64,000 bases of DNA. Source: Mesorhizobium sp. CAU 1732. Its GTDB lineage: Bacteria > Pseudomonadota > Alphaproteobacteria > Rhizobiales > Rhizobiaceae. The stretch is from contig NZ_JBDQQR010000005.1 in assembly GCF_039888675.1 (NCBI RefSeq), positions 1 through 64,000 on the forward strand. The letters are read 5' to 3'. This document shows positions 11,068-31,714 of the stretch, in pieces. The notes beneath the pieces are model-generated. The model made no database searches and was not told where the DNA came from. It was given only the letters and a program-made list of their open reading frames with translations. The translations under genes were made by a program, and so were the position numbers. Position 1 is the first letter of the stretch. Each line of letters opens with the position of its first letter.

Positions 11068-11081
11068 ATGATAGCCATCAT
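11068..11081. promoter_or_regulatory. Dyad ATGAT-N4-ATCAT, site A1
   Basis: ATGATAGCCATCAT, perfect 5-bp arms. One of nine copies in the window of ATGAY-N4-RTCAT, in the divergent promoter region of the 10.8-11.0 kb genes and the 11.1 kb TetR gene. Confidence 0.6.
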
Positions 11082-11102
11082 GAAAAGCGTCAAGGTATAA
11101 TG

Positions 11103-11116
11103 ATGACAGCTATCAT
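11103..11116. promoter_or_regulatory. Dyad ATGAY-N4-RTCAT, site A2
   Basis: ATGACAGCTATCAT, 35 bases from site A1 and 33 bases upstream of the TetR start. Candidate autoregulatory operator. Confidence 0.6.
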
Positions 11117-11148
11117 TGATTGGTCGCGTCAGCCGAAAGGAGCCGTCG

Positions 11149-11745
11149 TTGCGTGTAACAAAGGAGAAGGCTCGGGAAAACCGCGAGCGCATCGTCGACA
11201 CCGCGGCGATGCTGTTCCGTGAGCAGGGGTTCGACCGTGTGGGCGTTGCGCAGCTCATGGAGCAGGCGGGTTTCACCCATGGCGGCTTCTACAATCACTT
11301 CGCTTCGAAGGACGAACTGATCGCGGAAGCGCTTGCACGATGCTTCGACGAACGCTCCGAACAATATGCAGGCCATGAGGCAATTGCCATAGTCGAGCGC
11401 TATCTGTCGCGGGATCACAGGGATGCCCCCGGCCGCGGCTGTCCCGCCGCAGCTTTGGGCAGCGACGCATCGCGTCAGTCGGACGAGACGCGCTCGGCGT
11501 TTGCCGCAGGGGTCGAGAACATGATCGCGGCGATCGAGAAAGACGTGCGCCCGAAGCAGGCTCACGATCCGGTTTCGCGTGCGCGAGCCATCAGCGTACT
11601 GGCTCAGGCTGTTGGAGCAATGATCCTTTCGCGAGCTTGCCCGGAGAGTTCCTCATTGGCCGACGACATCCTCGATACCTGCCGTGCGGAGTGTATCTCG
11701 ATCTTCGACAATCACGGGGAAAGAGAACTGTCCGGAGAATCGTAA
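11149..11745 (+). CDS. TetR family regulator upstream of copper ATPase
   Basis: 198 residues from TTG 11149. I chose this start because AAAGGAG lies 6 bases before it; an upstream TTG at 11116 overlaps the operator. The DNA-binding domain ends in GFTHGGFYNHFASKDELIAEAL. The C-terminal domain has the HRDAPGRGCPAAALGSD stretch. Both parts closely resemble the TetR at 31761 (AGLTHGGFYGHF, HRDDPAHGCPTAALVAE), and both genes carry the same 14-bp dyad upstream. The copper ATPase starts three bases after its stop. Confidence 0.9.
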   Translation: MRVTKEKARENRERIVDTAAMLFREQGFDRVGVAQLMEQAGFTHGGFYNHFASKDELIAEALARCFDERSEQYAGHEAIAIVERYLSRDHRDAPGRGCPAAALGSDASRQSDETRSAFAAGVENMIAAIEKDVRPKQAHDPVSRARAISVLAQAVGAMILSRACPESSSLADDILDTCRAECISIFDNHGERELSGES

Positions 11746-11748
11746 GCG

Positions 11749-14231
11749 ATGCCCAACAAGCATGACCAAGGACCGCACGACCATGCGGCACATGGCAGTT
11801 CAAGTCACTTGCCGCATGGCATCGCGGAGCCCTCGCCCGCTTTGAAAGACGCCGTCAAGGACCCGGTCTGCGGTATGACCGTGAATCCACAGACAGCGCA
11901 GCACAGGATCGAGCATCAGGGCACTGTCCACCATTTTTGCTCCTCCGGTTGCAAGGCCAAATTCGAGGCCGATCCCGAGCGCTACATTGCTACGGAATCG
12001 GCTTCCGACGGCGCTGTTGCCCACGACCATTCGCAGAGCGATCCTGCCGATGCCAACGCGCATCACCGCAAAAGACAAGTCGCTGCCGCTGAACCAGCGG
12101 CCGAACGCGCGGTGTGGACATGCCCCATGCACCCCGAAATACGGCGGAATGTACCGGGCAACTGCCCGATCTGCGGAATGGCGCTCGAACCGCTCGTGGC
12201 AGCGCCCGATACGGGACCGAGCCCGGAACTGAAGGACATGACGCGCCGGTTCTGGATCGGATTGGTGCTGGCCTTGCCGGTGTTCGTTCTGGAGATGGGT
12301 TCTCACCTAATTCCGGCTCTGCATCATCTCGTGCCGGGGCATATTTCCGTAGCGGTGCAAATGATCTTGGCCACACCGGTCGTGCTCTGGGCCGGCTGGC
12401 CGTTCTTCGAGCGTGCCCGGGAGTCAGTGCGCACGCGCAACCTGAATATGTTCACGCTGATCGCCATGGGCACTGGCGTCGCCTGGGCGTACAGCATGGT
12501 TGCGGCTCTCGTCCCAGGGATCTTTCCGGCTGCGTTCAGAGCCGGCGATGGAACTGTAGCGGTCTACTTCGAGGCCGCCGCCGTTATCACCGTTCTGGTG
12601 TTGCTCGGCCAGGTGCTGGAACTGCGCGCCCGTGAGCAGACCTCCGGCGCGATCCGCGCATTGCTGGACCTGGCCCCGAAAACTGCGCGCCGGATCGGAG
12701 AGGCCGGCGCGGAAGAAGACATACCCATCGACGCTGTGCAGATCGGCGACCTTTTGCGGGTACGACCGGGTGAGACGGTGCCCGTCGATGGCATGGTCAC
12801 GGAGGGCCGCTCCTCGCTGGACGAATCCATGGTGACGGGCGAATCCATGCCGGTGACGCGCGCCGCCGGGGAAAATGTCGTCGGCGGCATGATGAACCAG
12901 ACGGGCGCGCTCGTCATCCGGGCCGAGAAGATCGGCAAGGATACGATGCTCGCGCGCATCGTGCAGATGGTCGCGGACGCCCAACGTTCGCGAGCGCGGA
13001 TCCAGCGCATGGCCGATCAGGTGTCCGGCTGGTTCGTACCGGTGGTGATCGCCATCGCGCTCCTCGCGTTTGCGGCATGGGGGATATGGGGGCCGGAACC
13101 GCGCCTTGCCCATGGCCTTGTCGCTGCCGTCTCGGTCCTGATCATCGCCTGTCCCTGCGCGCTCGGCCTCGCCACGCCCATGTCGATCATGGTTGGCGTC
13201 GGCAAGGGTGCGGGCGCGGGCGTCCTAATCAAGAATGCCGAAGCGCTGGAGCGCATGGAGAAGGTCGATACGCTGGTTGTCGACAAGACGGGAACGCTGA
13301 CCGAAGGCAAGCCGGCGGTTACGAAGGTCGTCGCCGGGGAGGGGGTTGCGGAAGACGAGATCCTGCGGCTTGCGGCCGCGGTCGAGAAAGCGTCGGAACA
13401 TCCGCTGGCGCTGGCGATCGTCGCGGCGGCGGACGGCAAGGGCATCGCCGTACCGGCGGTTAGCGATTTCGACTCTCCGACAGGCAAGGGCGCGCTCGGT
13501 ACGGTCGAAGGACAACGGATCGTGCTCGGCAACGCAGCTTTCCTCAAGGAAAACGGCGTCGATGCGTCCGCGTTGTCGCAGGAGGCGGATGCCTTGCGCC
13601 ATGACGGTGCAACGGCGATTTATATCTGTATCGACCATCGCGCAGCCGGCATCTTCGCGATCGCCGACCCGATCAAGGCCACGACGCGGGAAGCTCTCAA
13701 GGCTCTGCATGCGGACGGCATCCGCATCGTCATGCTCACCGGTGACAACCGTACGACCGCGGAGGCCGTCGCACGCGAACTAGGAATAGACGAGGTCGAG
13801 GCTGACGTGCTCCCAGACCAGAAGAGCGCCGTCGTTGCCCGGCTGAAGTCGGAGGGCAGGGTAGTGGCCATGGCCGGCGACGGGGTCAACGACGCACCGG
13901 CGCTCGCTGCCGCCGATGTTGGTATCGCAATGGGGTCTGAACCGATGTCGCCATCGAAAGCTCGGGCGTCACCCTTCTGAAGGGCGATCTGAACGGTATC
14001 GTCAAGGCGCGCCGCCTGTCGGAAGCGACGATGCGCAACATCCGGCAGAACCTCGTCTTTGCCTTCATCTACAATGCGGCCGGAGTGCCGGTTGCGGCGG
14101 GCGTGCTCTATCCGGTCTTCGGCATCCTGCTTTCTCCAATCATCGCCGCGGCGGCCATGGCGCTGTCTTCAGTCAGCGTCATCGGCAATGCTCTCAGGTT
14201 GCGTAGCGCCTTAGTGGCACATGACATCTAA
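11749..14231 (+). pseudogene. copA: Copper-translocating P1B-type ATPase, frameshifted
   Basis: P-type ATPase exporting copper across the inner membrane. In order: a His-rich start, a YHS domain (DPVCGMTVNP...HHFCSSGCKAKF), a heavy-metal-binding segment (WTCPMHPEI...NCPICGMALEPL), the TGES loop (DESMVTGESMPV), the ion motif CPC (near residue 467), the phosphorylation site DKTGT (near 511), SEHPLA and GDGVNDAP (near 710). The open frame stops at 13980 after [10 protein letters not shown]. The expected [18 protein letters not shown] and the last two membrane helices continue in another frame to 14231. One missing G near 13935-13940 explains this; with it the protein would be about 827 residues. 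Either a real inactivating mutation or a sequencing error. Confidence 0.85.
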
Positions 14232-14712
14232 GCGCTGTGCTCGGTAGATTGATTTCGTGCAAACGAATTCGCAGGAGAGGTCGGACGGCTTGCGATCAAT
14301 GTGCCAGCTTGATCCTAGCGAAGTGCTTGGCAAATTCGGGCCTCATGTGCTCGGCCCTTTCTCTCAAGAGTGGACGGCATTCACCGCATTGGAGGCTAAG
14401 TTGCGGGTTACCCGCATCAATCAGTCCATCGGAACGGATTTTTCCAAATCATACTAATTCTATAAATTTTGTTCTTTATGGTTGGCGTCAGATTGGCATG
14501 ATGAGCGCCTGCCTTTGCGCGGGTGTGTTCTTATCGAGGAGCATCATGTAGTCCCGATCAATATAGTCCCGCATTGTAACAGATTTTATTTTGCATCAGC
14601 CTGTAAAGATTCGGCTCGGTGAATGGAAACAATTATATGATCTCCACCATGTATATTATGATTTAGCGTTTAATAGTCTCTATTGAGTTTCTTAAATAGA
14701 AGAAAGAAGACA
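14232..14712. other. Gap between copA and the organosulfur operon
   Basis: About 480 bases, clearly richer in A+T than its surroundings from 14450 onward. One frame (GTG 14257 to 14457, 66 codons) has no recognisable similarity and no convincing ribosome site; it may be a gene remnant. TAGTCCCG occurs twice close together (about 14549-14576). The AT-rich part probably holds the promoter of the downstream operon. Confidence 0.4.
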
Positions 14713-15273
14713 GTGACCTACTCGATCGTCGGCTTCTCCGGCAACATCACGCGTCCGTCCCGCACGCGCCAACTCGTGGACCATCTCGTTCTTTCGATTG
14801 CGGAGCGTGGCAGTGCCCAACGACGCCTTTTCGACATTGAGGATATCGGACCTTCTCTGGGCGCGGCGCGGAACGTGGGGCAACTCGACCAGAGTGGCCA
14901 AGACGTTCTACTACAGATCAAGTCGGCCGACCTTCTTGTCGTCGGATCGCCCACCTACAAGGGCAGCTATACCGGCCTCTTCAAGCACTTTTTCGACCTC
15001 ATAGAGCCAGACGCGCTCCTTGGTAAGCCGGTGCTTCTTGCCGCGACAGGTGGAGGTCAGCGGCATTCTCTGATGATCGAGCACCAGTTGCGTCCGCTGT
15101 TCGGCTTTTTCCAGGCACTGACCTTGCCCACTGGTGTGTACGCCTCGGCTAAAGACTTCAGGGAGGGCGGTCCGGTGTCCAGCGAACTTCACGATCGCTC
15201 CCGGCAAGCCGTAGAGGAAGCGCTGCGACTGCTTCCCCGATCCTTCGCAGATGCTTCCATCGCCGCAGAGTGA
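14713..15273 (+). CDS. NAD(P)H-dependent FMN reductase, MsuE/SsuE type
   Basis: 187 residues from GTG 14713, preceded by AGAAAGAAGA. The N-terminus VTYSIVGFSGNITRPSRTR matches the usual beginning of MsuE-like flavin reductases, and VVGSPTYKGSYTGLFKHFFDLI is the flavodoxin-fold flavin-binding segment. These enzymes supply reduced FMN to two-component monooxygenases that cleave sulfonates or other C-S bonds. It is the first gene of a plus-strand operon and is followed directly by such a monooxygenase. Confidence 0.9.
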   Translation: MTYSIVGFSGNITRPSRTRQLVDHLVLSIAERGSAQRRLFDIEDIGPSLGAARNVGQLDQSGQDVLLQIKSADLLVVGSPTYKGSYTGLFKHFFDLIEPDALLGKPVLLAATGGGQRHSLMIEHQLRPLFGFFQALTLPTGVYASAKDFREGGPVSSELHDRSRQAVEEALRLLPRSFADASIAAE

Positions 15274-15332
15274 GCGGCTCCTTGGCTAACGCGGGGCGAC
15301 GCAGCTCTGCCACCGTAAACGAGGTAAGATCC

Positions 15333-16667
15333 ATGACTGATCGCAAACTGCACATCGGTACATTCCTGGTTGGTATACATGCGGGACATTGGCGGGATGC
15401 CGAGACGCCAGCGGACGCCGTCTCCAACATCAAGTCCTTCATCAGATTTGCGCAGCTTGCCGAAGCGGCGAAGTTCGATTTCGGGTTCATTGCCGACTCC
15501 GCCTACATCAACAAGGATTCGGCATGGGCGCTTCTGAGTCGACTTGAGCCAATCACCGCGCTTTCGGCCCTGGCCACAGTGACCACCCATCTTGGTTTGG
15601 CCGGAACGGTCTCCAGCTCGTACTCGAACCCCTTCGAAGTCGCGCGCCAGTTCGCATCGCTTGATCGGATCAGCGGCGGTCGCGCCGGATGGAACGTGGT
15701 CACTTCGGCTCTCGAAGGGGCCGGTCGCAATTTCGGGCAAGAGCGGCTGCATTCCCACGAAAAGCGCTACCGTATCGCGGAGGAACACGTCGAGGTCGTG
15801 CGGGGGCTCTGGAACTCCTGGGCCGACGACGCCTTCACGCGGAACAAAGAGACCGGCGAATACTTCGATCGCGAGAAGCTCTTCACACTCAATCACAAGG
15901 GCGAGTTCTTCAAGGTGGAAGGTCCGCTCAACATCGAGCGGTCTCCGCAGGGGCATCCTGTCATATTCCAGGCTGGCGCTTCGCCGGCGGGCAAGCGGCT
16001 CGCTGCCCGGACCGCCGACGCGATCTACGCGCCTTCGCCGACCGACGAGGTCAAGGCTCGCGCAGATTACCAGGAATGGAAACGGCTCGCCGAGGAAAAC
16101 GGGCGCAATCCGGACCATCTACTGGTCCTGCCTAATTTCCAGCCTGTTGTTGGGCGCACCGACGCCGATGCGCAGGAGCAATACGAGAAATCGAACCGGT
16201 TTATAGATGTTGATCACTCGCTGAGGATCATCAGCCGCTACTTCAACTATTTCGACTTCACGTCGATCGCGTGGGATAAGCCATTTCCGCACGATATCCT
16301 TGTTCATTCGAAGGAAGGCTTCGTCTCCGCCGCAGAACATCTCGTCGCCGATGCCCATCGCCATGGCCTTTCGGTCGCGGAGGCCGCGTTGAAGCACTCC
16401 AGGCCGTCGAAGGAGTTCGTCGGCAGCGCGGAACACATCGCCGACAAGATCGAGCGCTATTTCACCACCGGTATCCTCGACGGCTTCGTGGTGACGGTGA
16501 GCGAGGAGAACCTCGAGCGTTTCACCGATCTCGTGATTCCCATTCTGCAGCGCCGCGGCCTGTTCCGAACCGAATACGAGTCGACCACGTTGCGCGGACA
16601 TCTCGGTCTGCCGTTCCCGGAAAACCCTAATGTGGCTACCGCCTCGCGCCGGGAGGCGGCCGAGTGA
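15333..16667 (+). CDS. FMN-dependent monooxygenase, NtaA/SnaA/DszA family (LLM class)
   Basis: 444 residues from ATG 15333, preceded by GAGG; an earlier in-frame start at 15270 overlaps the reductase gene. The family block FASLDRISGGRAGWNVVTS and the late IADKIERYFTTGILDGFVV are present. This family takes reduced FMN from a partner reductase and oxidises nitrilotriacetate, dibenzothiophene sulfone, dimethyl sulfide and similar substrates. The adjacent reductase, sulfurtransferase and sulfonate-type ABC importer favour an organosulfur substrate. It is a paralogue of the truncated enzyme at 38 kb. Confidence 0.92.
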   Translation: MTDRKLHIGTFLVGIHAGHWRDAETPADAVSNIKSFIRFAQLAEAAKFDFGFIADSAYINKDSAWALLSRLEPITALSALATVTTHLGLAGTVSSSYSNPFEVARQFASLDRISGGRAGWNVVTSALEGAGRNFGQERLHSHEKRYRIAEEHVEVVRGLWNSWADDAFTRNKETGEYFDREKLFTLNHKGEFFKVEGPLNIERSPQGHPVIFQAGASPAGKRLAARTADAIYAPSPTDEVKARADYQEWKRLAEENGRNPDHLLVLPNFQPVVGRTDADAQEQYEKSNRFIDVDHSLRIISRYFNYFDFTSIAWDKPFPHDILVHSKEGFVSAAEHLVADAHRHGLSVAEAALKHSRPSKEFVGSAEHIADKIERYFTTGILDGFVVTVSEENLERFTDLVIPILQRRGLFRTEYESTTLRGHLGLPFPENPNVATASRREAAE

Positions 16668-16969
16668 TGAGCCAGACCATCCAGCTCAGGCGCTACTCGA
16701 TTGCCGAGGGCAAGGAGGACGCTTTCCTCGCCTCGTGGTCGTCACAGATTCCGCAACTGCGACGGAAGTACGGCTTCGAGATCAAGTTCGCCTATCTCGA
16801 TCGCGGGAATGGTCTCTTCGTTTGGGCGGTCGCGGTAGAGGGAGACGAAGAAGCTTTCCTCGCCGCGGAGCGAAGCTATTACGGGTCGCCGGAAAAGGCG
16901 GGGCTCGGAAACGGCGATCCTTCCATCCTGCGCGATATCTCGGTTGGCTTCGTCCAGCCCGTGCACTGA
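16667..16969 (+). CDS. NIPSNAP-like protein
   Basis: 100 residues. The start ATG 16667 overlaps the monooxygenase stop (TGATG), implying coupling. The pattern IQLRRYSIAEGKEDAFLASWSSQIPQLRRKYGF, ending in ISVGFVQP, is that of a NIPSNAP/dimeric alpha-beta barrel protein. No catalytic function is established for the bacterial members. In this operon it may assist the monooxygenase or handle a labile intermediate. Confidence 0.7.
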   Translation: MSQTIQLRRYSIAEGKEDAFLASWSSQIPQLRRKYGFEIKFAYLDRGNGLFVWAVAVEGDEEAFLAAERSYYGSPEKAGLGNGDPSILRDISVGFVQPVH

Positions 16970-17003
16970 CAGCCGCAATCGCAAGCACAATCAAGGTAAT
17001 CAC

Positions 17004-17819
17004 ATGACACAGCTCATCGAAGCAGCCGACCTGCGCGCCGCGCCCAAGAACTACAGAATTGTCGCCATTCATTTCGATGCGGATACGGAGGACAGCCGCG
17101 CGGCGTTTGCTGCCGAACACATACCGGGTGCCGTTCTCGCAGATCGTCTCATTTTCTCCCGGGCGCCGGAGAAGGGAGAGGGCCGCAACCCTCTTCCGCG
17201 AAGGGAGCAACTCGAGAAGGATGTTCGAACCCTTGGGCTTTTGCTCGGTGATCGGATCGTCCTCTACGATGCGAAGAAGAACGTCTTTGCAAGCCGCGCC
17301 TGGTGGGTGCTGCGAAACGCCGGTTTCACCGATGTGCGGATTCTGAACGGCGGACTCAAGGCTTGGAAGGCCGCAGGGGGCGAGATCGCATCGGGTGACG
17401 TTACCGTCCGACCAAGCTCCGTCGAAATCAGTGACGATCGCCTGCCGGCCATCTCGGGCGACGACGCGGCAGTCTTTCCTCAGCGCGGCATCTTGCTGGA
17501 CGCGCGTTCGGCCGCGCGTTTTTCAGGCCAGCCCGATCCGCTCGATCCCCGACCGGGCCATGTACCCGGCGCCGTCAACATTCCGTGGGAAGGGCTCATC
17601 GACGACCAGGACCGTTTCCTTCCCGCTTCAGAACTGCGTGAGCGTTTCGCCAGCCTCGGCATAAAGCCCGACACCGCAGTCGCGGCCTATTGTGGCTCGG
17701 GCGTCTCGGCCGCCCATGTCCTCGTATCGCTGGAAGTGGCCGGTTTCCCGACAGGAGCGCTCTATCCCGGATCGTGGAGCGAATGGGCGGCGGATCCGCG
17801 CCGGCCGGTCGAGGCGTGA
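17004..17819 (+). CDS. Two-domain sulfurtransferase (rhodanese/3-mercaptopyruvate type)
   Basis: 271 residues from ATG 17004, with AAGG upstream. Two rhodanese domains are visible: the first includes GDRIVLYDAKKNVFASRAWWVLRNAGF and the second LLDARSAARF...HVPGAVNIPWEG. The active loop in the second domain is YCGSGVSA, with the catalytic cysteine. The enzyme moves sulfane sulfur from a donor thiol to cyanide, thiols or sulfite. Its place in an FMN-monooxygenase/ABC operon suggests it processes sulfur released from the substrate. Confidence 0.9.
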   Translation: MTQLIEAADLRAAPKNYRIVAIHFDADTEDSRAAFAAEHIPGAVLADRLIFSRAPEKGEGRNPLPRREQLEKDVRTLGLLLGDRIVLYDAKKNVFASRAWWVLRNAGFTDVRILNGGLKAWKAAGGEIASGDVTVRPSSVEISDDRLPAISGDDAAVFPQRGILLDARSAARFSGQPDPLDPRPGHVPGAVNIPWEGLIDDQDRFLPASELRERFASLGIKPDTAVAAYCGSGVSAAHVLVSLEVAGFPTGALYPGSWSEWAADPRRPVEA

Positions 17820-17827
17820 GCGGCGTC

Positions 17828-18592
17828 ATGGCGGGACTGCTGACAGATAAGGTCGTATTGGTCACCGGTGGCGGCCGGGGCATCGGCGCGGCCTCGGCTC
17901 GGCTTTTCGCCGCTGAAGGTGCGGCTGTCGTGCTTGCATCGCGCTCGTCCGATGAAATCGCGGCTGTCGCCGAAACGATCGAGGCAATCGGCGGGAAGGC
18001 ATCGTGGCAGAGGGCCGATGTTTCGGTCGGCGACGAGGTCAGCGCGCTCATATCCTTCGTTGTCTCCAGGCACGGCCGTATCGACGGCGCGTTCGCATGC
18101 GCCGGAATGGGATCAGGCGGCTCCGGCAGCGTCTTAGACATCGAGGAAAAGGACTTCGACGCGAGTTTCGACGCAAATACGCGCAGCGCATGGCTAACCG
18201 TCAAGCATGTGTCGAAGGCGATGATCGCGGCCGGCAAGGGCGGGTCCATCGTGACCACGAGCAGCATCGCGTCGACCATGACCAACACGCGCGGTGGAAT
18301 CTACGCAGCGGCAAAGCACGCCGTGGACCGGATTTCCACGGTTGCCGCCCGCGAGCTTGGTCCGTTGGGCATCCGCGTGAACACCATCGCTCCCGGCGCA
18401 ACGCGCACCGAGATGTTCGCTAGGTGGGAGAAGAGCAAGCCCGGGATCACTGAGGAGATCGCCCGCACGACGCCTCTCGGGCGAATCGGAGAGGCCAGCG
18501 AGATCGCGGAGGCCGCCGCCTGGTTGCTCAGCGACAGGGCGTCCTATGTCAGCGGCGCCTTCCTGCTGGTCGATGGCGCGCGGAGCGTATGA
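17828..18592 (+). CDS. SDR family oxidoreductase
   Basis: 254 residues from ATG 17828; GTG 17816, overlapping the previous stop, is an alternative start. Classical short-chain dehydrogenase: VTGGGRGIGAASARLF (cofactor), a CAGMG stretch in place of NNAG, TTSSIAS and GIYAAAKHAVDRI with the catalytic Tyr and Lys. NAD(P)-dependent reduction or oxidation of a carbonyl/alcohol is expected. It lies between the sulfurtransferase and the ABC importer genes in the same operon. Confidence 0.9.
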   Translation: MAGLLTDKVVLVTGGGRGIGAASARLFAAEGAAVVLASRSSDEIAAVAETIEAIGGKASWQRADVSVGDEVSALISFVVSRHGRIDGAFACAGMGSGGSGSVLDIEEKDFDASFDANTRSAWLTVKHVSKAMIAAGKGGSIVTTSSIASTMTNTRGGIYAAAKHAVDRISTVAARELGPLGIRVNTIAPGATRTEMFARWEKSKPGITEEIARTTPLGRIGEASEIAEAAAWLLSDRASYVSGAFLLVDGARSV

Positions 18593-18621
18593 GTCAGGTT
18601 CGAAAGAAGAAGGGGCATGTC

Positions 18622-19387
<766 letters not shown>

Positions 19388-19398
<11 letters not shown>

Positions 19399-20242
19399 TC
19401 TCGATCACCCCAGGGTGGGGTTCCAGCCGCGTGACATTGCGAGATGGGTTGTTCCGTTCGTCGCCGTCGTCAGGAACGTTGCCATCGGGTTCATCGCTCC
19501 GATAGTCGTGCTGGTGTTGTGGGAATATGCCGCGCGCAGCGGGCTTGTTCCCCGCATCCTTTTTCCGGCGCCCACGGCGATCTGGAAAAGCGCTGTCTCA
19601 GTCTACGACTCCGGCAGGCTCGCCGACCATATCACGGCGAGTGTGTCCCTGCAGCTCACCGGTCTCGCTGTTGGGTCGGTGCTGGGCGTGACGCTTGGGC
19701 TGCTCGTTGGTCTGCTGCGCAGCGCCGAAGACATATTCGACAGTTCACTCGTCATTCTCCAGGCCATACCAACCACGGCCGTGATACCGCTTTTCATCAT
19801 CTGGTTCGGTGGTGATCAGGGCACTCGCGTCCTCGTTGTGGCGCTGGCCGTGTTCTTCCCTGTCTACGTCAACACGCTCGGCGGCATCAGGCTGACGGAC
19901 AGGAAGCTTATCGAAGTCGGGCGCATCCTGAACTTTGGCCCGATCAACGTTGCCTTGCGAATCCTGGTGCCTCACGCCCTGCCGCAGATATTCGTCGGCA
20001 TACGCCAGTCTCTGAAGATGGCATGGGTCGGGGTGGTCGCGGCAGAACTCCTGATCGCATCCTCTGACGGCATCTACTTCATGATGATGGAGGCGCGGTC
20101 CTTCGGCCAGACGCCGATCGTGTATCTCGGTCTCATCCTGTTCGGGGTTTTCGGCGTGGTGAGCGATCTGGTAGTCGGACGTCTTCAGCGAATTGCCCTG
20201 CCGTGGACGCATGAGGCGGGCCACGTGGGACGGCGCAAATGA
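19388..20242 (+). CDS. ABC importer permease 1, SsuC/TauC type
   Basis: 284 residues from ATG 19388, preceded by AAGGAGGAGG and overlapping the end of the ATPase gene. About six membrane helices. The cytoplasmic EAA-like loop (NTLGGIRLTDRKLIEVGRIL, then ALPQIFVGIRQSLKMAWVGVV) matches sulfonate-type permeases. It is followed by a second, different permease overlapping by four bases. Confidence 0.92.
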
Positions 20243-21027: not shown

Positions 21028-21066
21028 CCCCCCACATCGATGCAAATGCAAACTCTGGAGCTCACG

Positions 21067-24033: not shown

Positions 24034-25116
24034 TCAACCTGCCAGTGTGGGATAATCGGTGTAGCCCTCTGCGCCGCCGCCATAGAGGGTGGCGGGGTCA
24101 AGGGCGGCAAGCGGTGCGCCGCTCTTCAGCCGGGCCACCAGATCGGGATTGGAGATGAACGGGCGGCCAAAGGCGAACAGGTCCGCCTTGCCCTCCGCGA
24201 GGCGCTTCGCGGCAAGATCCAGATCGTAACCGTTGTTGGCGATGTAGGTGTTCGTGAACCTACTGCGCAGCGCGTCGAAGTCGAAGGGTGCGACTTCGCG
24301 AGGTCCGCCTGTCGCGCCTTCGACGACGTGAATGTAGGCGATTCCCAGTTCATCAAGCTTGCCGACGAGATAGTCGAACTGCGGTTGCGGATCGGAACTG
24401 GAAGCACCATTGGCTGGAGACACCGGCGAAATACGGATGCCGGTGCGCTCCGCCCCGATCTCGTCGACAATGGCTGCCGTGACCTCGAGAACAATACGGG
24501 CACGGTTTTGGACCGAACCGCCGTATGCGTCTGTGCGGGTGTTGGCACCGTCCTTGAGGAATTGGTCGAGCAGATAGCCATTTGCTCCATGGATTTCGAC
24601 ACCGTCAAAGCCTGCCTTGATCGCATTTGCGGCAGCCCTTCGGAAGTCCTCCACGATGCCGGGAATTTCAGTCAGCTCGAGGGCGCGAGGCTCCGATACG
24701 TCGACGAATCCGTTGTTAACGAAGGTCTTTGTCTCAGCACGGATGGCGGATGGGGCAACCGGGGCCTGCCCGCCGGGCTGAAGGTCGACATGCGAGATTC
24801 GGCCGACATGCCAGAGCTGCAGGACGATATGGCCGCCCCTGGCATGGACGGCATCTGTCACTTTGCGCCAACCGTCGATCTGCGCCTGGGTATAGATGCC
24901 GGGGGTATTCTGATAGCCTTGGCCCTGCTGCGAGATCTGTGTCGCTTCGGTGATGATCAGACCAGCCGAAGCCCGCTGCGCGTAATACTCGACGGCCAGG
25001 TCGCCCGGCACGAAGCCAGCGTCCGCCCTGTTGCGCGTCAACGGAGCCATCACGACCCGGTTGGAGAGCGTGATGTTGCCGAGTTCATAGGGTTCGAAAA
25101 GAGAGTTGTCGTTCAT
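24034..25116 (-). CDS. nemA: Old yellow enzyme family ene-reductase (NemA-like)
   Basis: 360 residues, the usual length for this FMN enzyme. Substrate-binding His and Asn in GVEIHGANGYLLDQFLKD, the catalytic Tyr in RTDAYGGS, and the start LFEPYELGNITLSNRVVMAPLTRNRA are diagnostic. NemA-type enzymes reduce activated C=C bonds of enones, quinones and maleimides, and nitro or nitrate esters. It is divergent from an SDR. Two 14-bp dyads in between suggest TetR control. Confidence 0.93.
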   Translation of the reverse strand: MNDNSLFEPYELGNITLSNRVVMAPLTRNRADAGFVPGDLAVEYYAQRASAGLIITEATQISQQGQGYQNTPGIYTQAQIDGWRKVTDAVHARGGHIVLQLWHVGRISHVDLQPGGQAPVAPSAIRAETKTFVNNGFVDVSEPRALELTEIPGIVEDFRRAAANAIKAGFDGVEIHGANGYLLDQFLKDGANTRTDAYGGSVQNRARIVLEVTAAIVDEIGAERTGIRISPVSPANGASSSDPQPQFDYLVGKLDELGIAYIHVVEGATGGPREVAPFDFDALRSRFTNTYIANNGYDLDLAAKRLAEGKADLFAFGRPFISNPDLVARLKSGAPLAALDPATLYGGGAEGYTDYPTLAG

Positions 25117-25216: not shown

Positions 25217-25227
25217 CATAGACAAAT

Positions 25228-25241
25228 ATGATAGTCGTCAT
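25228..25241. promoter_or_regulatory. Dyad ATGAY-N4-RTCAT, site C2
   Basis: ATGATAGTCGTCAT, exactly 25 bases from site C1, the same spacing as sites D1/D2. Confidence 0.6.
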
Positions 25242-25299: not shown

Positions 25300-26001
25300 A
25301 TGACGCACCCTGCAGCCAAGCCACTCGCCCTTGTCACCGGAGTAGGGCCGGGGACCGGCACTGCCATCGTTCGCCGCTTCGCGAAGGGCGGTTATCGCGT
25401 CGCCATGCTGGCGCGGGACGCCGGGCGCCTTGCCGATCTTGAGGCAGAGATACCCAACACGATTGCGGTCCCCTGCGACGTGACGGATGACGACGCCCTT
25501 GAAGCTGCGATCGCCGGCCTGGGCGCACCGAAAGTCGTCGTCCATAACGCCGTGGGCGGCGCTTTTGGATCGTTCATGGAGATCGACCCCGACGTCTTGC
25601 GACGCAATTTCGAGGTCAACACGATGGCGCTTCTGCATCTTGCCCGGCTGACCACGCCGGCGATGGTCGAAGCAGGCGATGGCGCGCTGATCGTGACGGG
25701 CAACACGTCCGCCTTGCGGGGCAAGCCTAACTTCGCCGGCTTCGCCCCGAGCAAGGCCGCACAGCGGATTTTGTCGGAAGCGATTGCACGCGAGCTTGGC
25801 CCCAAAGGGGTTCACGTCGCCTACGTGATCATCGACGCCGTGATCGACGTTCCCCGGCAACGCGAGCGCTTCCCCGACGCAGCGGATGATTTCTTTGTCC
25901 AACCCGCGTCGATCGCCGCCGAAGTCTTCCATCTCGCTCACCAGCGCCGCGACGCCTGGTCGTTCCTTGCCGAGGTCCGGCCGTTCCACGAGCCCTGGTG
26001 A
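25300..26001 (+). CDS. SDR-like protein with Phe in place of catalytic Tyr
   Basis: 233 residues from ATG 25300, preceded by GAGGAG; an upstream start at 25228 lies inside the operator. It has the SDR cofactor region (LVTGVGPGTGTAIVRRFAKGG), HNAVGG in place of NNAGG, and TGNTSALRGKPNFAGFAPSKAA, where FxxxK replaces YxxxK. The SDR at 37030 shares this substitution (FAAFSAAK) and the RGKxNFA context, so they form a distinct subgroup. It is followed by a tautomerase gene. Confidence 0.85.
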   Translation: MTHPAAKPLALVTGVGPGTGTAIVRRFAKGGYRVAMLARDAGRLADLEAEIPNTIAVPCDVTDDDALEAAIAGLGAPKVVVHNAVGGAFGSFMEIDPDVLRRNFEVNTMALLHLARLTTPAMVEAGDGALIVTGNTSALRGKPNFAGFAPSKAAQRILSEAIARELGPKGVHVAYVIIDAVIDVPRQRERFPDAADDFFVQPASIAAEVFHLAHQRRDAWSFLAEVRPFHEPW

Positions 26002-26068
26002 TCGTCGCGATGCCCGACGTCGCAAGCGGGTCCGCTGACATGAAGTCGAAACCAGAGAAGGATTGAAG

Positions 26069-26506
26069 ATGCCCACATACATATGCTGGACGGCCGCCGG
26101 TCTGCTCTCTTCGGAAAAGCGCGCGCAGATTGCCGAGGCCATAACGACCATCCATGCCGAAGAGGGACGCGCGCCGCTCTACTTCGTTCAGGTGCTTTTT
26201 AACGATGTGCAGCCGGCCAGTCACTTTGTTGGCGGCCAGCCCGCCGCCGACGGGCACATCTGGATACGCGCCGACATCAGAAGTGGCCGCACCGACGAGC
26301 AGAAGAAGGCCATCCTCGAGCGGATCGCCACCGAAGTAAGCACCGTCGCAAAGGTCGGCAGGGAAGACGTCTGGGTCTACATCTCGGACATTTCGGCGGC
26401 AGGGGTTCTCGAGTTCGGCCATGTCCTCCCACAGCCGGGCGAGGAAGATGCCTGGTTCGCTAAACTGCCGAAGGCGTTGAGGGAGCGACTGAAGGCGCTT
26501 TCCTGA
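26069..26506 (+). CDS. Tautomerase superfamily protein (Tautomerase_3/cis-CaaD-like)
   Basis: 145 residues from ATG 26069 with AAGG upstream. Residue 2 is proline (MPTYICW), which becomes the N-terminal catalytic base after Met removal. The length is about that of cis-3-chloroacrylic acid dehalogenase-like members, double the 4-oxalocrotonate tautomerase unit. The family catalyses enol-keto isomerisation, hydration or dehalogenation. It follows the Phe-type SDR on the plus strand, presumably in one operon under the 25.2 kb dyads. Confidence 0.8.
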   Translation: MPTYICWTAAGLLSSEKRAQIAEAITTIHAEEGRAPLYFVQVLFNDVQPASHFVGGQPAADGHIWIRADIRSGRTDEQKKAILERIATEVSTVAKVGREDVWVYISDISAAGVLEFGHVLPQPGEEDAWFAKLPKALRERLKALS

Positions 26507-26582: not shown

Positions 26583-27446
26583 TCAAGCGTCCAGAAACGC
26601 CACGGCCTTTTCGACGAACGCCTCGTGGTTCTGGAAAATACCGCCGTGACCGGCATCCTCGTAAATGACCAGTTCGGTGTTTGGCAGACGGCGCGCGAGG
26701 TCGATCGAGTTGGGTGTGGGGACCATTATGTCGTTGTCACCGTTGGCGACCAGCACCGGCTTGCCGATGATGGACAAATCCTGCGGCGACTGTCTGCCCC
26801 AGGCGTGGATCGCCTTCAACTGTCTCAGCAGTATGGTGATCGTGGCCGGCTTGTCGCGATCGGCTTTCCGCTCCTTCAATCGTTCGAGAAAGGCTTTCGC
26901 GGCGCGGCGGCCGTTCGGGGTCGAAGTGAAGAACAGGAAGGTCTTCGGGTCCGTGAAGGTCAACACGCCCCTGATCATCAGCGGCCATGACACCGGCCCG
27001 ACACGCGCGATCCCCTTGCCGCCTGCCGGCCCGGTTCCGGCCAGTACGAGTTTTCTGATCAGCTCGGGGTGTTCCACGACAATCTGTTGGGCGACGAAAC
27101 CGCCGAGCGAGAATCCGATCAGATCGACTTCCCTGAAACCGAGCGCCCGGATCACGGCGACCATGTCCGCGGCCATTTCGCCAATCGTCACCGGCGCCGT
27201 GCCGCCAGATCTGCCGACGCCGCGATAGTTGAGTGCAATGACAGGGCGTGTCCGGGCAAGTCCATCGACGATGCGCGGATCGAAATTGTCCAACGTCGCG
27301 GCCCAGTGGTTGAGCAGGACGACGGGCACACCTGACGCGGCACCGAGTTGTCGATAGGCGAACGTCGTTCCCGCAGCCTCGATTCTTAAGGTGGGCGTGT
27401 CCCTCCAGGACGTCGCGCCAGCTTCGGATGGGTGTGGTCTTGTCAC
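26583..27446 (-). CDS. Alpha/beta hydrolase
   Basis: 287 residues. Nucleophile elbow GFSLGG, acid region NGDNDIMVP and His in DAGHGG. It is a paralogue of the hydrolase at 23100. It is the last of a minus-strand set (SDR, AcuI-like reductase, zinc-free alcohol dehydrogenase-like reductase, hydrolase) starting at 30362. It converges with the tautomerase gene. Its substrate is unknown. Confidence 0.9.
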   Translation of the reverse strand: MTRPHPSEAGATSWRDTPTLRIEAAGTTFAYRQLGAASGVPVVLLNHWAATLDNFDPRIVDGLARTRPVIALNYRGVGRSGGTAPVTIGEMAADMVAVIRALGFREVDLIGFSLGGFVAQQIVVEHPELIRKLVLAGTGPAGGKGIARVGPVSWPLMIRGVLTFTDPKTFLFFTSTPNGRRAAKAFLERLKERKADRDKPATITILLRQLKAIHAWGRQSPQDLSIIGKPVLVANGDNDIMVPTPNSIDLARRLPNTELVIYEDAGHGGIFQNHEAFVEKAVAFLDA

Positions 27447-27487
27447 GACGGACTTCCTTGAGATGTGCCGGAACGAGCCCCGGGCGT

Positions 27488-28492
27488 CTACGGCTTCAAC
27501 TTGACGACCACCTTGCCTTTGGCGCGCCCCGACTCGACGTAGGCAAGGGCATAGTTGGTCTCCGCGAACGGGAAGACCCGATCGACGACGGGACGAATGA
27601 CGCCTTTCTCGATCAGGGCGGCGATCTGGCCCAACTGTTCGCCGTTCGCGCGCATGAACAGGAACGAGTAGTCAACCTGCCGCGCCCTGGCATTGCGGCG
27701 GATGCCCGAACTCAAGAGGCGCAAGACCTGCCGCAGGAGCCAGTTCAGTCCCTGCTCCTTTGCGAAGGCCGGGTCGGGCGGACCGGAGATCGAGATCAAC
27801 TTGCCGCCGGCCTTCAGTACGCCGAGCGACTTCTCCAGCGTCTTCGCGTCGAGGCTGTTCAAGGCGACGTCGTAGCCTGACAGGATTTTTTCGAAGTCCT
27901 GCGTCCTGTAGTCGATGACGACGTCCGCCCCGAGGCTCGTGACCAGTTCGGCATTCGCGGCGCTTGTCGTCGTCGCCACCGTCGCGCCGAGATGCTTGGC
28001 GAGCTGGATGGCGAAGGTCCCGACGCCACCCGATCCGGCGTGGATGAGAACCTTCTGTCCCTTTGCCAGCCTGGCGCGTTCGACGAACACCTGCCATGCG
28101 GTCAGGCCGACGAGAGGAATGGACGCAGCCTCCTCCATCGTCAGGTTCTTCGGCTTCAGCGCGACATCAGCCTGATCGATGGCGATGAACTCCGCGAGCG
28201 TGCCGATCCGCCCGTCGCGCGGGCGGGCGTAGATCTCGTCGCCAGGCTTGAAGCGGCGCACGTTCCTGCCGACGCGGACCACGACGCCGGCCACGTCATG
28301 ACCGAGGACGAGGGGGAAGCTGTAAGGCAGGATCAGCTTGAACTCGCCGTCGCGAACCTTGGAATCGAGCTGGTTGAGTCCCGCTGCGTGGACTTCCACA
28401 AGCACGTCTTCGTCCTGCACGACCGGTTCAGGCACGTCGCCGAACCGCAACGCGCTCTTCTTCCGGTATCGGTCGAGAATGAAGGCTTTCAT
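27488..28492 (-). CDS. NADP-dependent quinone oxidoreductase-like MDR protein
   Basis: 334 residues of the medium-chain dehydrogenase/reductase superfamily: EVHAAGLNQLDSKVRDGEF, VLGHDVAGVV, then the Rossmann motif IHAGSGGVGTFAIQLAKHLGA. The structural and catalytic zinc cysteines of true alcohol dehydrogenases are missing, as in quinone oxidoreductases (zeta-crystallin type). It probably reduces quinones or enals with NADPH. It lies downstream of the AcuI-like gene in the same direction. Confidence 0.9.
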   Translation of the reverse strand: MKAFILDRYRKKSALRFGDVPEPVVQDEDVLVEVHAAGLNQLDSKVRDGEFKLILPYSFPLVLGHDVAGVVVRVGRNVRRFKPGDEIYARPRDGRIGTLAEFIAIDQADVALKPKNLTMEEAASIPLVGLTAWQVFVERARLAKGQKVLIHAGSGGVGTFAIQLAKHLGATVATTTSAANAELVTSLGADVVIDYRTQDFEKILSGYDVALNSLDAKTLEKSLGVLKAGGKLISISGPPDPAFAKEQGLNWLLRQVLRLLSSGIRRNARARQVDYSFLFMRANGEQLGQIAALIEKGVIRPVVDRVFPFAETNYALAYVESGRAKGKVVVKLKP

Positions 28493-28545
28493 GATATTCG
28501 GCTCTCTGTTTCGTTGCCAGGCCTGCGGGGCCGATGGCGGGTCAG

Positions 28546-29532
28546 TCAGGCGTTGACGTCGACAACGGTCCGGCCACGAACCTTTCCTTCGAGGATGCGC
28601 GGGGCGAGGTCCGGAACATCCGCGAGGCCGACGACCGTCGTGGTTTTGGCCAGCTTGTCGAGATCAAGATCGCGGGCGAGCCGCGACCAGGCTTCGAAGC
28701 GCACGCTTTGCGGCGCATTGACGGAATCGATCCCTGCAAGCGTGACGTTGCGCAGGATGAACGGCAATACGGAACCGGGAAGATCAGCGCCCTGCGCAAG
28801 GCCGAACGCGGCCACCACGCCCCGGTACTGCGTCTGTGCAAGGACGTTCGCAAGCGTGTGGCTGCCGACCGAGTCTATCGCGCCCGCCCATCGTTCGGAG
28901 GAGATCGGCTTGCCCGGTTCGGAGAGCGAGCGTCGATCGATGATTTCCGCCGCGCCAAGTTCACGCAGATAATCGGCTTCCTCCAAGCGTCCGGTCGAGG
29001 CGACGACCCGATAGCCGAGTGTCGAGAGCAGGGCGATAGCTATAGAGCCAGATCCCCCGTTTGCACCCGTGACGAGTATGTCGCCGCGGTCCGGCGTGAT
29101 GCCGCCGTGTTCAAGCGCCAAGACCGAGAGCATGGCCGTGTAGCCGGCCGTGCCGATCGCCATGGCGTCTTTCGTCGAGAACGGCTCGGGAAGCTTGACG
29201 AGCCAGTCGCCGCTCAGCCGCGCCTTACGGGCGTAGCCGCCATGGTGGGTCTGGCCCAGGCCCCAGCTATTGGCGACGACCCGGTCGCCGACCTCGATGC
29301 CGGGATAGGAGGATGCTTCCACGGTTCCCGAAAGGTCGACGCCAGGGATCAACGGAAACTTCTGAATGATCGGCGCACGGCCGGTCAGGGCCATTCCATC
29401 CTTGTAGTTTACGGTCGAGTAGTCGACGGCGACCGTGACATCGCCTGGCATGAGATCGTTTTCTTCGAAGTCGACGAGATTGACGGAAAGCTTCTCGCTA
29501 TCCCGCGTTGCCAAAAGAGCCTTGAACGTCAT
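28546..29532 (-). CDS. acuI: AcuI/YhdH-type acryloyl-CoA or enoyl reductase
   Basis: 328 residues from ATG 29532 (GGAGA upstream); an extension to 29661 overlaps the upstream SDR. YhdH/AcuI features: MTFKALLATRDSEKLSVNLVD at the start, VDYSTVNYKDGMALTGRAPI, IPGVDLSGTV and the cofactor region VTGANGGSGSIAIALLSTLGY. The family reduces acryloyl-CoA or similar 2-enoyl compounds with NADPH. It fits with the other NADPH-dependent reductases of this block. Confidence 0.9.
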   Translation of the reverse strand: MTFKALLATRDSEKLSVNLVDFEENDLMPGDVTVAVDYSTVNYKDGMALTGRAPIIQKFPLIPGVDLSGTVEASSYPGIEVGDRVVANSWGLGQTHHGGYARKARLSGDWLVKLPEPFSTKDAMAIGTAGYTAMLSVLALEHGGITPDRGDILVTGANGGSGSIAIALLSTLGYRVVASTGRLEEADYLRELGAAEIIDRRSLSEPGKPISSERWAGAIDSVGSHTLANVLAQTQYRGVVAAFGLAQGADLPGSVLPFILRNVTLAGIDSVNAPQSVRFEAWSRLARDLDLDKLAKTTTVVGLADVPDLAPRILEGKVRGRTVVDVNA

Positions 29533-29573
29533 TGACCTGTTCTCCCGTATCCCAGCTTGGCACAGACTGGTTG

Positions 29574-30362
29574 CTATCCTGCGATCCTGTAGCGTTCGGC
29601 AGGTTGCGTCTGCCCGAACCCCTGGATCATGACCAGCCGCGCGGCCTGATAGGCATCCCAATGCGCGCCCTCGTGAAGGGCCGGGATGGTGATCGGCTCA
29701 CGACGATCGAAACCCACGAGCGCGGCATCCACCAGTTCGCCAACGTCCATCAGCGGGGGAACCTTCTCCGGATCGGCGCCGGAGCGCTCCCAGATCTCGG
29801 TGCGCGTTGCCGCAGGAAGCACGGCCTGCACATAGACGCCCTTCGGGCCGAGCTCGAGGGCGAGTCCCTGCGAAAGATAGAGGACGAACGCCTTTGTCGC
29901 GCCGTAGACGCTCTGGCCGAACTCGGGCACAAGCCCCACCACCGACGAGATGTTGACGATGGTTCCCTGGCCGGCCGCCACGAAATTGCCGGCCGCCGCA
30001 TGGGAAAGGCGCAGGAGAGCGGTCGTGTTGAGTGAGACGAGCCGTTCCACGTCGGCGATTGCCTGGCGCTCGAAAGCACCGGCAAGGCCCGCCCCGGCGT
30101 TGTTCACGAGAACTCCGATCTTGCGATCATCGCTCACGCGCTTTGCCACCAGGCCGAGATCGTCAGGATCGGTCAGGTCTGCGACGACGATCTCGACGGC
30201 AACGCCGGTCTCGTCGCGCAGCCGCGCGGAAAGAGCATTGAGGCGCGCCTTGTCTCTTGCGACGAGGACAAGATCGTGGCCGCGTCGCGCAAAGCGTTCG
30301 GCATAGGTTGCACCAATGCCGGACGATGCGCCGGTGATGAGGACTGAAGATGTGTCGGTCAC
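29574..30362 (-). CDS. SDR family oxidoreductase
   Basis: 262 residues with the intact classical motifs: ITGASSGIGATYAERFA, VNNAGAG, NISSVVG and SVYGATKAFV (catalytic Tyr and Lys present). It is the first gene of the minus-strand reductase operon; two 14-bp dyads lie 34 and 59 bases upstream. It probably acts on a carbonyl substrate with NADP(H). Confidence 0.92.
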   Translation of the reverse strand: MTDTSSVLITGASSGIGATYAERFARRGHDLVLVARDKARLNALSARLRDETGVAVEIVVADLTDPDDLGLVAKRVSDDRKIGVLVNNAGAGLAGAFERQAIADVERLVSLNTTALLRLSHAAAGNFVAAGQGTIVNISSVVGLVPEFGQSVYGATKAFVLYLSQGLALELGPKGVYVQAVLPAATRTEIWERSGADPEKVPPLMDVGELVDAALVGFDRREPITIPALHEGAHWDAYQAARLVMIQGFGQTQPAERYRIAG

Positions 30363-30395
30363 GATACTGCTCTCGCTGTCGGATTATTATTCATG

Positions 30396-30409
30396 ATGAT
30401 TGTCATCAT
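30396..30409. promoter_or_regulatory. Dyad ATGAY-N4-RTCAT, site D1
   Basis: ATGATTGTCATCAT, upstream of the SDR-AcuI-MDR-hydrolase operon. Confidence 0.6.
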
Positions 30410-30420
30410 TGATGCTAAAT

Positions 30421-30434
30421 ATGATCGCCATCAT
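30421..30434. promoter_or_regulatory. Dyad ATGAY-N4-RTCAT, site D2
   Basis: ATGATCGCCATCAT, 25 bases from D1. Confidence 0.6.
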
Positions 30435-30606
30435 CTCAATGTCAATGGCAGGGGGCGACGATTCCGACGGGTAGCGCCGGCCTGATCTGTCGATCGGCAA
30501 TCGTTCAGGCCTGCCGTGGGAAGAACCTACGGCAAAGATGAACTCTGACGGTCAACGGGTCTTGGGCAGGTGTTCGCGCGATGCGGCTTGCCGCCCGTGC
30601 TGCGGT

Positions 30607-30966
30607 TCAGAACGACAGATAGCCCTGGAGTGCCAGAAAAAGCAGCGCCGAAGTCGGCAGCAGCGCATGCCTGTATTCCTTGTGGATCAGCAGCGTCGCG
30701 ATCGCAGCCAGCATGACGGCAATGCCAAGTCCAACGCCCCAGACCCGCGTCGAGGCAAAAATCAGAAGAACCGCCACGACCAGCTCGAGGACCGCCGTTA
30801 CGTAATGGAACCAGTCCGGATAGCCCCACCGGGCATATTCCGCCCGTACGTTCGCGGGAGCGATCCAGTTGCCGATCGCGCCCACGAAAAAGAATATCGC
30901 CAGAGCCCAGGCCAGCAGATCGTGCGCGGCGAGACCGAAAATCATGAGGGGGTCATCCTTCGCCAT
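30607..30966 (-). CDS. DoxX family membrane protein
   Basis: 119 residues with four hydrophobic segments (LLAWALAIFFFVGAIGNWI, a segment near VTAVLELVVAVLLIF, GVGLGIAVMLAAIATLL, ALLPTSALLFLALQGYL). The charged stretch NVRAEYARWGYPDWFHYV between the first two is typical of DoxX-like proteins. The function of this family is poorly defined; some members are tied to redox balance. Dyads E1/E2 lie 12 and 40 bases upstream, placing it in the putative TetR regulon. Confidence 0.8.
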   Translation of the reverse strand: MAKDDPLMIFGLAAHDLLAWALAIFFFVGAIGNWIAPANVRAEYARWGYPDWFHYVTAVLELVVAVLLIFASTRVWGVGLGIAVMLAAIATLLIHKEYRHALLPTSALLFLALQGYLSF

Positions 30967-30977
30967 TTAGTCCAATG

Positions 30978-30991
30978 ATGACATATATCAT
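30978..30991. promoter_or_regulatory. Dyad ATGAY-N4-RTCAT, site E1
   Basis: ATGACATATATCAT, just upstream of the DoxX gene. Confidence 0.6.
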
Positions 30992-31005
30992 CATTACGCC
31001 AACGT

Positions 31006-31019
31006 ATGACCGACATCAT
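31006..31019. promoter_or_regulatory. Dyad ATGAY-N4-RTCAT, site E2
   Basis: ATGACCGACATCAT, 28 bases from E1. Confidence 0.6.
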
Positions 31020-31103
31020 GATTATGTCAACGCTGTGGAAAACTGCTGCTGGAAACAAGCGCTTTTTCGCGGTCAACGATTGTGGCTCGACCGGCCCATC
31101 GTC

Positions 31104-31559
31104 CTAAAGAGCAAGCTTCAACCCCTTCAGGATCTTGTCAGCGATCTTGCGGTCCGCCCGGAACGCCAGTCCAATGACTTCGAGGGCGTCGGCGGACACG
31201 GCCGCGACGGCGGCGCGGTTATCGACATCGTTGAAGGTGCCAAAGAGATCCCGGGTAAAGATGGCGAACGGAACATCCCGGCTGCGCGCGCGCTCAATGG
31301 TGCGGCCAATCTCTTCGGGACTAGCGCCGAAGACGAGGACCGGGTCCTTGAACATCGGGAGGTAGCGATTGCCCGTTGCATCGAAATAGTCCTCGCCGAC
31401 GGCGTCGGCCTGGCTCGCGACGCCGCTGATCGTAAAAGCGGCGACGTTCAGTCTCTGCCATGGCTCGAGGTCCGAGCGCAGAACGACGGCGATCTTCATC
31501 GACTGTTCGGTGGCGGGAGTTTCATCGCTATTGCCCGTTTCGTGATCGGCTTTGTTCAT
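31104..31559 (-). CDS. DUF2000 family protein
   Basis: 151 residues from ATG 31559 with GGAG about 10 bases upstream; ATG 31499 (MKIAVVLRSDLEPWQRLNVAA, the start of the domain proper) is a possible alternative. The domain pattern continues as KDPVLVFGASPEEI and IFTRDLFGTFNDVDNRAAVAAV. DUF2000 proteins have no established function. It is divergent from the second TetR paralogue, with one perfect dyad between them. Confidence 0.75.
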   Translation of the reverse strand: MNKADHETGNSDETPATEQSMKIAVVLRSDLEPWQRLNVAAFTISGVASQADAVGEDYFDATGNRYLPMFKDPVLVFGASPEEIGRTIERARSRDVPFAIFTRDLFGTFNDVDNRAAVAAVSADALEVIGLAFRADRKIADKILKGLKLAL

Positions 31560-31700
31560 TCCTGCTTCACTCCGTCTCTTGTCCTCGCTCAAGGCAGGTT
31601 CGGCGCACGGCCGGATGGGCCGCCATTCATGTGCACGGAACTGACAGCAGCTCCGCTCCGGGATTTCCCTGTTGCCTGTCTTGGCGCTTCACCTATATAC

Positions 31701-31714
31701 ATGACAATTGTCAT
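31701..31714. promoter_or_regulatory. Dyad ATGAY-N4-RTCAT, site F
   Basis: ATGACAATTGTCAT, a perfect 14-bp palindrome between the DUF2000 gene and the TetR gene. Confidence 0.65.

Follow-up and report, generated by a model that had tools for sequence, protein, structure and literature searches.

The repressor XdpR of Agrobacterium bohemicum R89-1 controls the xdo operon, which consists of xdpA, encoding a short-chain dehydrogenase/reductase (SDR), and xdpB, encoding an old yellow enzyme (OYE) (PMC5891007). The XdpR site, TCATGA-N6-TCATGA, was predicted and is supported by gel shift, and the same report states this sequence for strain C58. Here we describe a related system in a window of 64,000 nucleotides from Mesorhizobium sp. 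CAU 1732 (positions 1 to 64,000 of contig NZ_JBDQQR010000005.1, assembly GCF_039888675.1), in which a 14-bp palindrome, ATGAY-N4-RTCAT, recurs at five promoters (P1–P5) adjoining two TetR genes (TetR1 and TetR2) and a set of reductase genes. The operator and the core unit of repressor, SDR and OYE are already known, because the published XdpR site contains this 14-mer (the 18-mer on pAtC58 reads TC-ATGACGATCATCAT-GA); what is larger here is the gene set, which is distributed over five promoters. We consider it likely that the locus is an enlarged XdpR-type regulon, in which two repressors would share one operator, occlude the promoters of the enzyme genes and be released by an enone- or quinone-type ligand.

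The likeness to XdpR/xdo extends to the enzymes and to gene order. The window OYE ends in GYTDYPTLAG, which fits the subgroup C1 motif GxxDYP, and a TetR gene divergent from an SDR-OYE pair is found both in C58 and in a further copy on another contig (C3) of the same genome. In the window, by contrast, the SDR and OYE genes stand under separate promoters and neither TetR gene is directly divergent from them. Furthermore, xdo comprises one operon and one regulator, whereas the system described here comprises five promoters and two regulators, and further copies are found on contigs C3 and C1. The regulator of C58, which PMC5891007 names as carrying the same regulation sequence, is 69% identical to TetR2 and 41% to TetR1. 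In C58 a second operator copy starts 27 bp on from the first, where the paper reports one site. The published 18-mer is absent from the window because the flanks differ, and it is present in 15 of 80 relatives; its inner 14-mer occurs nine times in the window. We found no description in the open-licence literature of the paired layout, of the promoter placement, of a five-promoter gene set including DoxX, DUF2000, AcuI, quinone-reductase-like and tautomerase genes, or of two diverged repressors on one such site.

Other TetR repressors are more distant. The structure model of TetR2 (mean predicted local distance difference test score, pLDDT, 90.7) is closest in fold to 2fd5, which is also the nearest solved relative by sequence, then to PA2196 of Pseudomonas aeruginosa on DNA (4l62; 22% identity) and then to NemR. 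We take PA2196 to be CurR, which presumably adjoins a curcumin (enone) reductase gene; against the NCBIfam CurR model, TetR1 and TetR2 score about 35 bits, far under the 300-bit cut-off. Escherichia coli NemR shares the fold and controls an N-ethylmaleimide reductase in nemRA-gloA, but it is only 23% identical, which does not indicate orthology, and nemR, nemA and gloA share one orientation. Among the NemR cysteines with described sensor roles (Cys21, Cys106 and Cys116; PMC7464077), the Cys106 position alone is conserved here. AltR of Pantoea ananatis (PMC13178969) and DitR of Stenotrophomonas maltophilia (PMC9342713) are likewise described as TetR repressors of stress genes, their own genes included, that bind inverted repeats and are released in a Cys-dependent manner. 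Their operators, CAATCTAC-N6-GTAGATTG and CATAC-N5-GTATG, are unlike ATGA-N6-TCAT.

Scanning the window for the palindrome returned 10 matches against an expectation of 0.14 (mean of 100 dinucleotide shuffles; largest shuffle, 2). Because the register at 30393 overlaps that at 30396, these represent nine separate sites, starting at 11068, 11103, 25203, 25228, 30396, 30421, 30978, 31006 and 31701. All nine are exact, as the initial annotation had claimed for nine copies at five promoters, and its statement that four promoters carry two copies 25–35 bases apart agrees with the start-to-start spacings of 35, 25, 25 and 28 bp measured at P1 to P4; P5 has one exact site. P1 (11068..11081 and 11103..11116) lies between a leftward small open reading frame (ORF) with an unrelated TetR gene and the rightward TetR1 gene (11149..11745, plus strand), for which we propose a TTG start after AAAGGAG. 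P2 (25203..25216 and 25228..25241) separates the OYE gene (24034..25116, minus strand; N-ethylmaleimide reductase subfamily, above the NCBIfam cut-off) from genes for an SDR (25300..26001) and a tautomerase of the Tautomerase_3 family (26063..26506), both on the plus strand. P3 (30396..30409 and 30421..30434) precedes four minus-strand genes, which encode an XdpA-like SDR (29574..30362; its homologue is divergent to TetR in many relatives), the acrylyl-CoA reductase AcuI (28546..29541; above the NCBIfam cut-off), a zinc-type dehydrogenase/quinone-reductase-like MDR protein (27488..28492; best NCBIfam match PIG3, below the PIG3 cut-off) and an alpha/beta hydrolase (26583..27446). P4 (30978..30991 and 31006..31019) stands ahead of a DoxX-like membrane protein gene (30607..30966, minus strand; DoxX_2, above the Pfam cut-off), and P5 (31701..31714, preceded by CTATATAC) lies between the DUF2000 gene (31104..31559, minus strand; above the Pfam cut-off) and TetR2 (31761..32327, plus strand). 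A small codon-usage gene caller places eight of the nine sites (9 of the 10 matches) in intergenic DNA. The site at 31701 is scored as coding because the caller extends the TetR2 frame upstream across DUF2000 antisense; the TetR2 start conserved in another genus, 31761, is downstream of it. P5 looks like a TetR2 promoter, and DUF2000, the weakest member, belongs to the regulon only probably.

The whole genome (5.44 Mb, six contigs) contains 70 matches to the motif, so that the 10 in the window represent a strong enrichment (binomial p ~1e-8). Placement of the others covers 56 of the 60 non-window matches: the gene caller assigned 42 of 53 to coding and 11 to intergenic DNA, and ORF lists put two of three more within ORFs and one within or at the start of an ORF. 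Four of the 11 intergenic sites make up two further pairs adjoining XdpR-like TetR genes. One, on contig C3, lies between an SDR gene and a TetR gene whose product is 72% identical to TetR2, with SDR and OYE genes alongside; the other, on contig C1, has an SDR gene on one side and, on the other, an XdpR-like TetR gene broken into pieces. Paired copies 6–36 bp apart occur at six distinct places only, four of them in the window, and the reversed pattern gave none. When an AT-rich flank was required on one side, 17 sites were left: the nine of the window, the four from the two further pairs and four others that sit within ORFs or at ORF starts. Thus, lone copies elsewhere in the genome are mostly background, and we rejected them as additional regulon members because they are mostly coding. 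For example, one copy called intergenic (L233) is inside an ORF that we read as VapC-like, another (L234) is at the start of a hydantoinase-like ORF, and the three placed from ORF lists (L313, L314 and L315) fall in ORFs read as FlgK-like flagellar, permease and histidine-kinase, the last within the ORF or at its start.

To follow the motif beyond this genome, we searched 84,980 species genomes with protein sequence alone for relatives of three TetR proteins and used the best 80 of 530. An exact site is present within 250 bp upstream of the TetR gene in 69 of these 80 loci, and two sites in 53. The loci hold 123 sites in 20,000 upstream bases compared with 8 in the remaining 639,001, and site spacings are 23–31 bp, with one of 143 excepted. 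In the opposite direction, we scanned DNA alone for a composite of an operator pair and GTCAA. At class level 16 of 385 genomes contained it and at phylum level 13 of 398 (the own genome counting in both), and the reversed control gave none. Of the 28 distinct loci outside the own genome (omitting L285, which overlaps L269; seven come from genomes already in a looser family search), 25 adjoin an XdpR-clade TetR gene. The exceptions are L269 and L302, which carry hydrolase and SDR or MDR genes, and L297 (1,923 bp), with a partial TetR match 1.2 kb off. The looser search for pairs alone had matched 62 of 297 genomes of the family; the stricter composite was adopted because part of those matches resemble Met/His-rich coding repeats, and we quote no rate for the 40 loci taken from it because they were picked by eye as promoter-like. 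Of the 41 TetR_N matches in the own genome, 30 were compared together with their flanking DNA: sites accompany the three clade members, 26 show none within ~1.5 kb (Fisher p ~0.001), and the remaining one, the unrelated TetR at 10173–10820, shares P1. ATGAY-N4-RTCAT is therefore almost certainly the operator of this TetR clade, and the claim of one operator and one TetR regulon in the initial annotation is strongly supported by phylogenetic footprinting in both directions, by the own-genome TetR control and by the relative whose gel shift is published (PMC5891007). The operator marks the clade and not one chemistry, because the regulon genes differ among members. Within 4-kb flanks, an XdpA-like SDR occurs in 38 of the 80 TetR loci (37 at 51% identity or more), OYE in nine and MDR in nine.

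The arrangement is conserved in another genus of the family, where a single locus (L172) encodes, in order, TetR2, DUF2000, DoxX, SDR, AcuI, MDR, hydrolase, tautomerase, SDR, OYE, TetR1 and a second hydrolase, with proteins 55–86% identical to those of the window. Exact sites are present at all five promoters, the DoxX promoter having one copy and not two. Across the five intergenic regions, 82 of 90 half-site bases are identical between the two genera compared with 378 of 742 other bases, the four core bases of each site being left out. DUF2000 is linked to the system in the window, in this second genus (80% identity) and on a Sphingomonas panacis plasmid, where a 73% copy lies close by; other DUF2000 copies in the family reach at most 48%.

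The position of the operator relative to promoter elements is also shared. GTCAA, which is TTGAC on the opposite strand, starts 4–7 bases past the TetR-proximal copy in 47 of the 53 pairs, whereas 30 of 4,000 random 12-mers contain it, and P2, P3 and P4 follow this rule. From this placement it follows that one operator copy would occupy the spacer between the -35 and -10 elements of the enzyme promoter. At P3, the promoter reads TTGACA (30445–30440), 16 bases and CATATT, with the second copy in the spacer; at P2, TTGACT (25253–25248) places the second copy in the spacer of the OYE promoter; and at P4 the second copy is just inside TTGAC (31030–31026). In P1, GTCAA comes after the first copy (11089–11093, the TTGAC of a leftward promoter). 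On the regulator side, the copy comes after a TATA-like box at both P1 (TATAAT, 11096–11101, immediately upstream of the second copy) and P5. Because such a box stands immediately before the distal copy in no more than 13 of the 53 pairs (6 of 4,000 random 10-mers), we rejected a fixed -10 rule for the regulator gene. With one copy filling the spacer and a second 25–28 bp off (35 at P1), a bound repressor would exclude RNA polymerase, and since sites also lie at the TetR promoters, TetR1 and TetR2 would occupy their own promoters as well and repress themselves. Release of the repressors by a small ligand, most likely a quinone-type compound, an alpha,beta-unsaturated carbonyl or a derivative of one, would then induce OYE, AcuI, the MDR reductase, both SDRs, the tautomerase, the hydrolase, DoxX and probably DUF2000.

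Whether both repressors act on the shared site bears on this scheme. TetR1 and TetR2 are 42% identical and both contain THGGFYxHF, the common recognition end that the initial annotation had pointed out; the THGGFY part is conserved throughout the clade. In a tree of 82 proteins (five of the 80 with in-frame stops, L078, L104, L105, L114 and L125, were left out, and those of the window, C58 and L172/L203 were added), they fall in separate deep groups that both have the site, TetR2 clustering with C58 and the contig C3 copy. Each TetR gene is preceded by the site in the window and in the second genus, and the TetR1-TetR2 arrangement is kept in both. Judging by these sequence features, TetR1 and TetR2, although deeply diverged, probably both bind ATGA-N6-TCAT here. 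The low identity of the two proteins and the lack of an exact site in the relatives closest to the TetR1 group (L119 and L127) would fit an alternative in which one repressor, probably TetR2, runs the shared promoters and TetR1 is confined to P1 and the genes next to it or responds to another ligand and serves other targets. We judge this improbable, given the exact copies of the same site before TetR1 in two genera, the conserved THGGFY part and the joint retention of both repressors. More tentatively, if deeply diverged repressors that differ in their sensor domains share these operators, the two could form a two-input gate, full induction requiring that both be removed, each by its own signal.

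Several observations weigh against the regulon as proposed. The operator pair is absent from all seven other genomes of the genus, and 11 of the 80 TetR relatives have no exact site (six Oxalobacteraceae, a Novosphingobium, an acidobacterium, a Hylemonella, a Burkholderiaceae and a Pectobacterium), the best match within 250 bp having one mismatch in nine and two in the other two (random windows: up to one mismatch in 11 of 338, up to two in 102 of 338). L119 and L127, which stand closest to the TetR1 group beyond its own family, are among the 11. In other members of the clade, the divergent gene encodes a thiolase, aldo/keto reductase, MFS or DoxX protein (the comparison took in 22 of 51 listed divergent genes, one being the window SDR). 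As for the inducer, codeine left xdpR and xdpB mRNA unchanged while the oxidative-stress genes katG, trx1 and gshB rose, and XdpA was inactive on the substrates tried, crotonaldehyde included, although the introduction of the same paper says that XdpB protects cells from codeinone, a Michael acceptor (PMC5891007). Cys96 is the sole invariant cysteine of the clade (82 of 82) and, together with the invariant Arg158, aligns with NemR Cys106 and Lys175, the pair named for the bleach switch of NemR in PMC7464077. However, NemR Cys21 aligns with TetR2 Phe23 and Cys116 with Arg106, neither being matched, and we set Cys96/Arg158 aside as proof of a thiol switch because four of five displayed TetR structures also have a cysteine at this position; by residue conservation, such a switch is possible.

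Two further explanations can be held against the enlarged regulon. That a simple palindrome recurs by chance or coding bias, without function, would accord with the background of single copies, mostly coding (42 of 53 outside the window), and with loose pairs in Met/His-rich-looking coding stretches of other genomes. This has a negligible probability beside the 0.14 matches expected and the six pairs against none for the reversed control, and is refuted by the 69 of 80 TetR loci, the 25 of 28 DNA-selected loci and the 82 of 90 conserved half-site bases. Alternatively, the same operator and regulon could form a catabolic and not a stress switch, the repressors sensing a specific growth substrate or intermediate, such as a plant terpenoid or aromatic enone, and SDR, OYE, AcuI, tautomerase and hydrolase making up one pathway. 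The absence of codeine induction points this way, as does the authors' proposal of a pathway with an unidentified substrate (PMC5891007), and thiolases and aldo/keto reductases appear among the enzymes of other clade members. Yet redundant-looking broad reductases (OYE, AcuI, MDR and two SDRs) with DoxX and a nearby MATE transporter suggest protection rather than one pathway, and there is no ring-cleavage or CoA-ligase gene among the genes behind P1–P5; we regard a catabolic switch as possible but doubtful. The initial annotation had described the enzyme set as suited to enones, quinones or other electrophiles. This agrees with the enzymes and with the fold neighbours; the one published induction test of a relative, with codeine, was negative, and we give enone- or quinone-type inducers of this regulon about an even chance.

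Because 25 of 28 loci picked out by the composite of two copies plus GTCAA alone proved to adjoin a TetR gene of this clade, the pattern can be used to compile candidate targets from further proteobacterial genomes. The published XdpR site gains a second copy and a promoter position, and the physiological role of xdo-type old yellow enzymes becomes testable through the ligand of the regulator. The locus is a compact example of one site probably shared by two repressors, and it places DoxX-like and DUF2000 proteins in a regulatory context; no paper using the name DUF2000 was found in the open-licence PubMed Central literature. If the two-input gate holds, DoxX-like and DUF2000 proteins would be tied to enone or quinone metabolism, with an operator copy fixed between the -35 and -10 elements of the enzyme promoters.

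Variation is seen elsewhere in the clade. In Duganella members (L085, L088, L089 and L107), the operator pair ahead of the TetR gene has drifted, as in L088 and L089 with ATTACGCTCGTAAT, which perhaps represents a natural specificity change. On contig C1 (3585473–3585789), the XdpR-clade TetR gene is split into two pieces in different frames beside the SDR gene and the intact operator pair.

Some neighbouring genes might be drawn into the regulon. Behind TetR2, a MATE transporter gene (32337..33710, plus strand) has no operator of its own and is a possible read-through member. The region it opens (32337–36970) continues with thioesterase, MaoC, MarR, tautomerase and curA-like reductase genes and contains no operator; on the Sphingomonas panacis plasmid, TetR, MATE and MaoC genes follow in the same order as in the window. 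Behind TetR1, a copper-type P-type ATPase gene in two reading frames (11749..14207, plus strand) may be co-transcribed with it, in an uncertain role; it is broken near 13938–13941 relative to an intact homologue that also stands behind an XdpR-clade TetR gene (L125). Leftward of P1, the unrelated TetR gene and the small ORF of ~66 codons occupy 10173–11017, and the TTGAC-operator arrangement of P1 points at both; their counterpart in the second genus is a hydrolase gene. TetR1 is ~11 kb apart from the rest of the window regulon, and the genes between them at 14683–22032 read as flavin reductase, flavin monooxygenase, sulfurtransferase, SDR and NitT/TauT-type ABC transporter genes, possibly an inserted sulfur-compound cluster.

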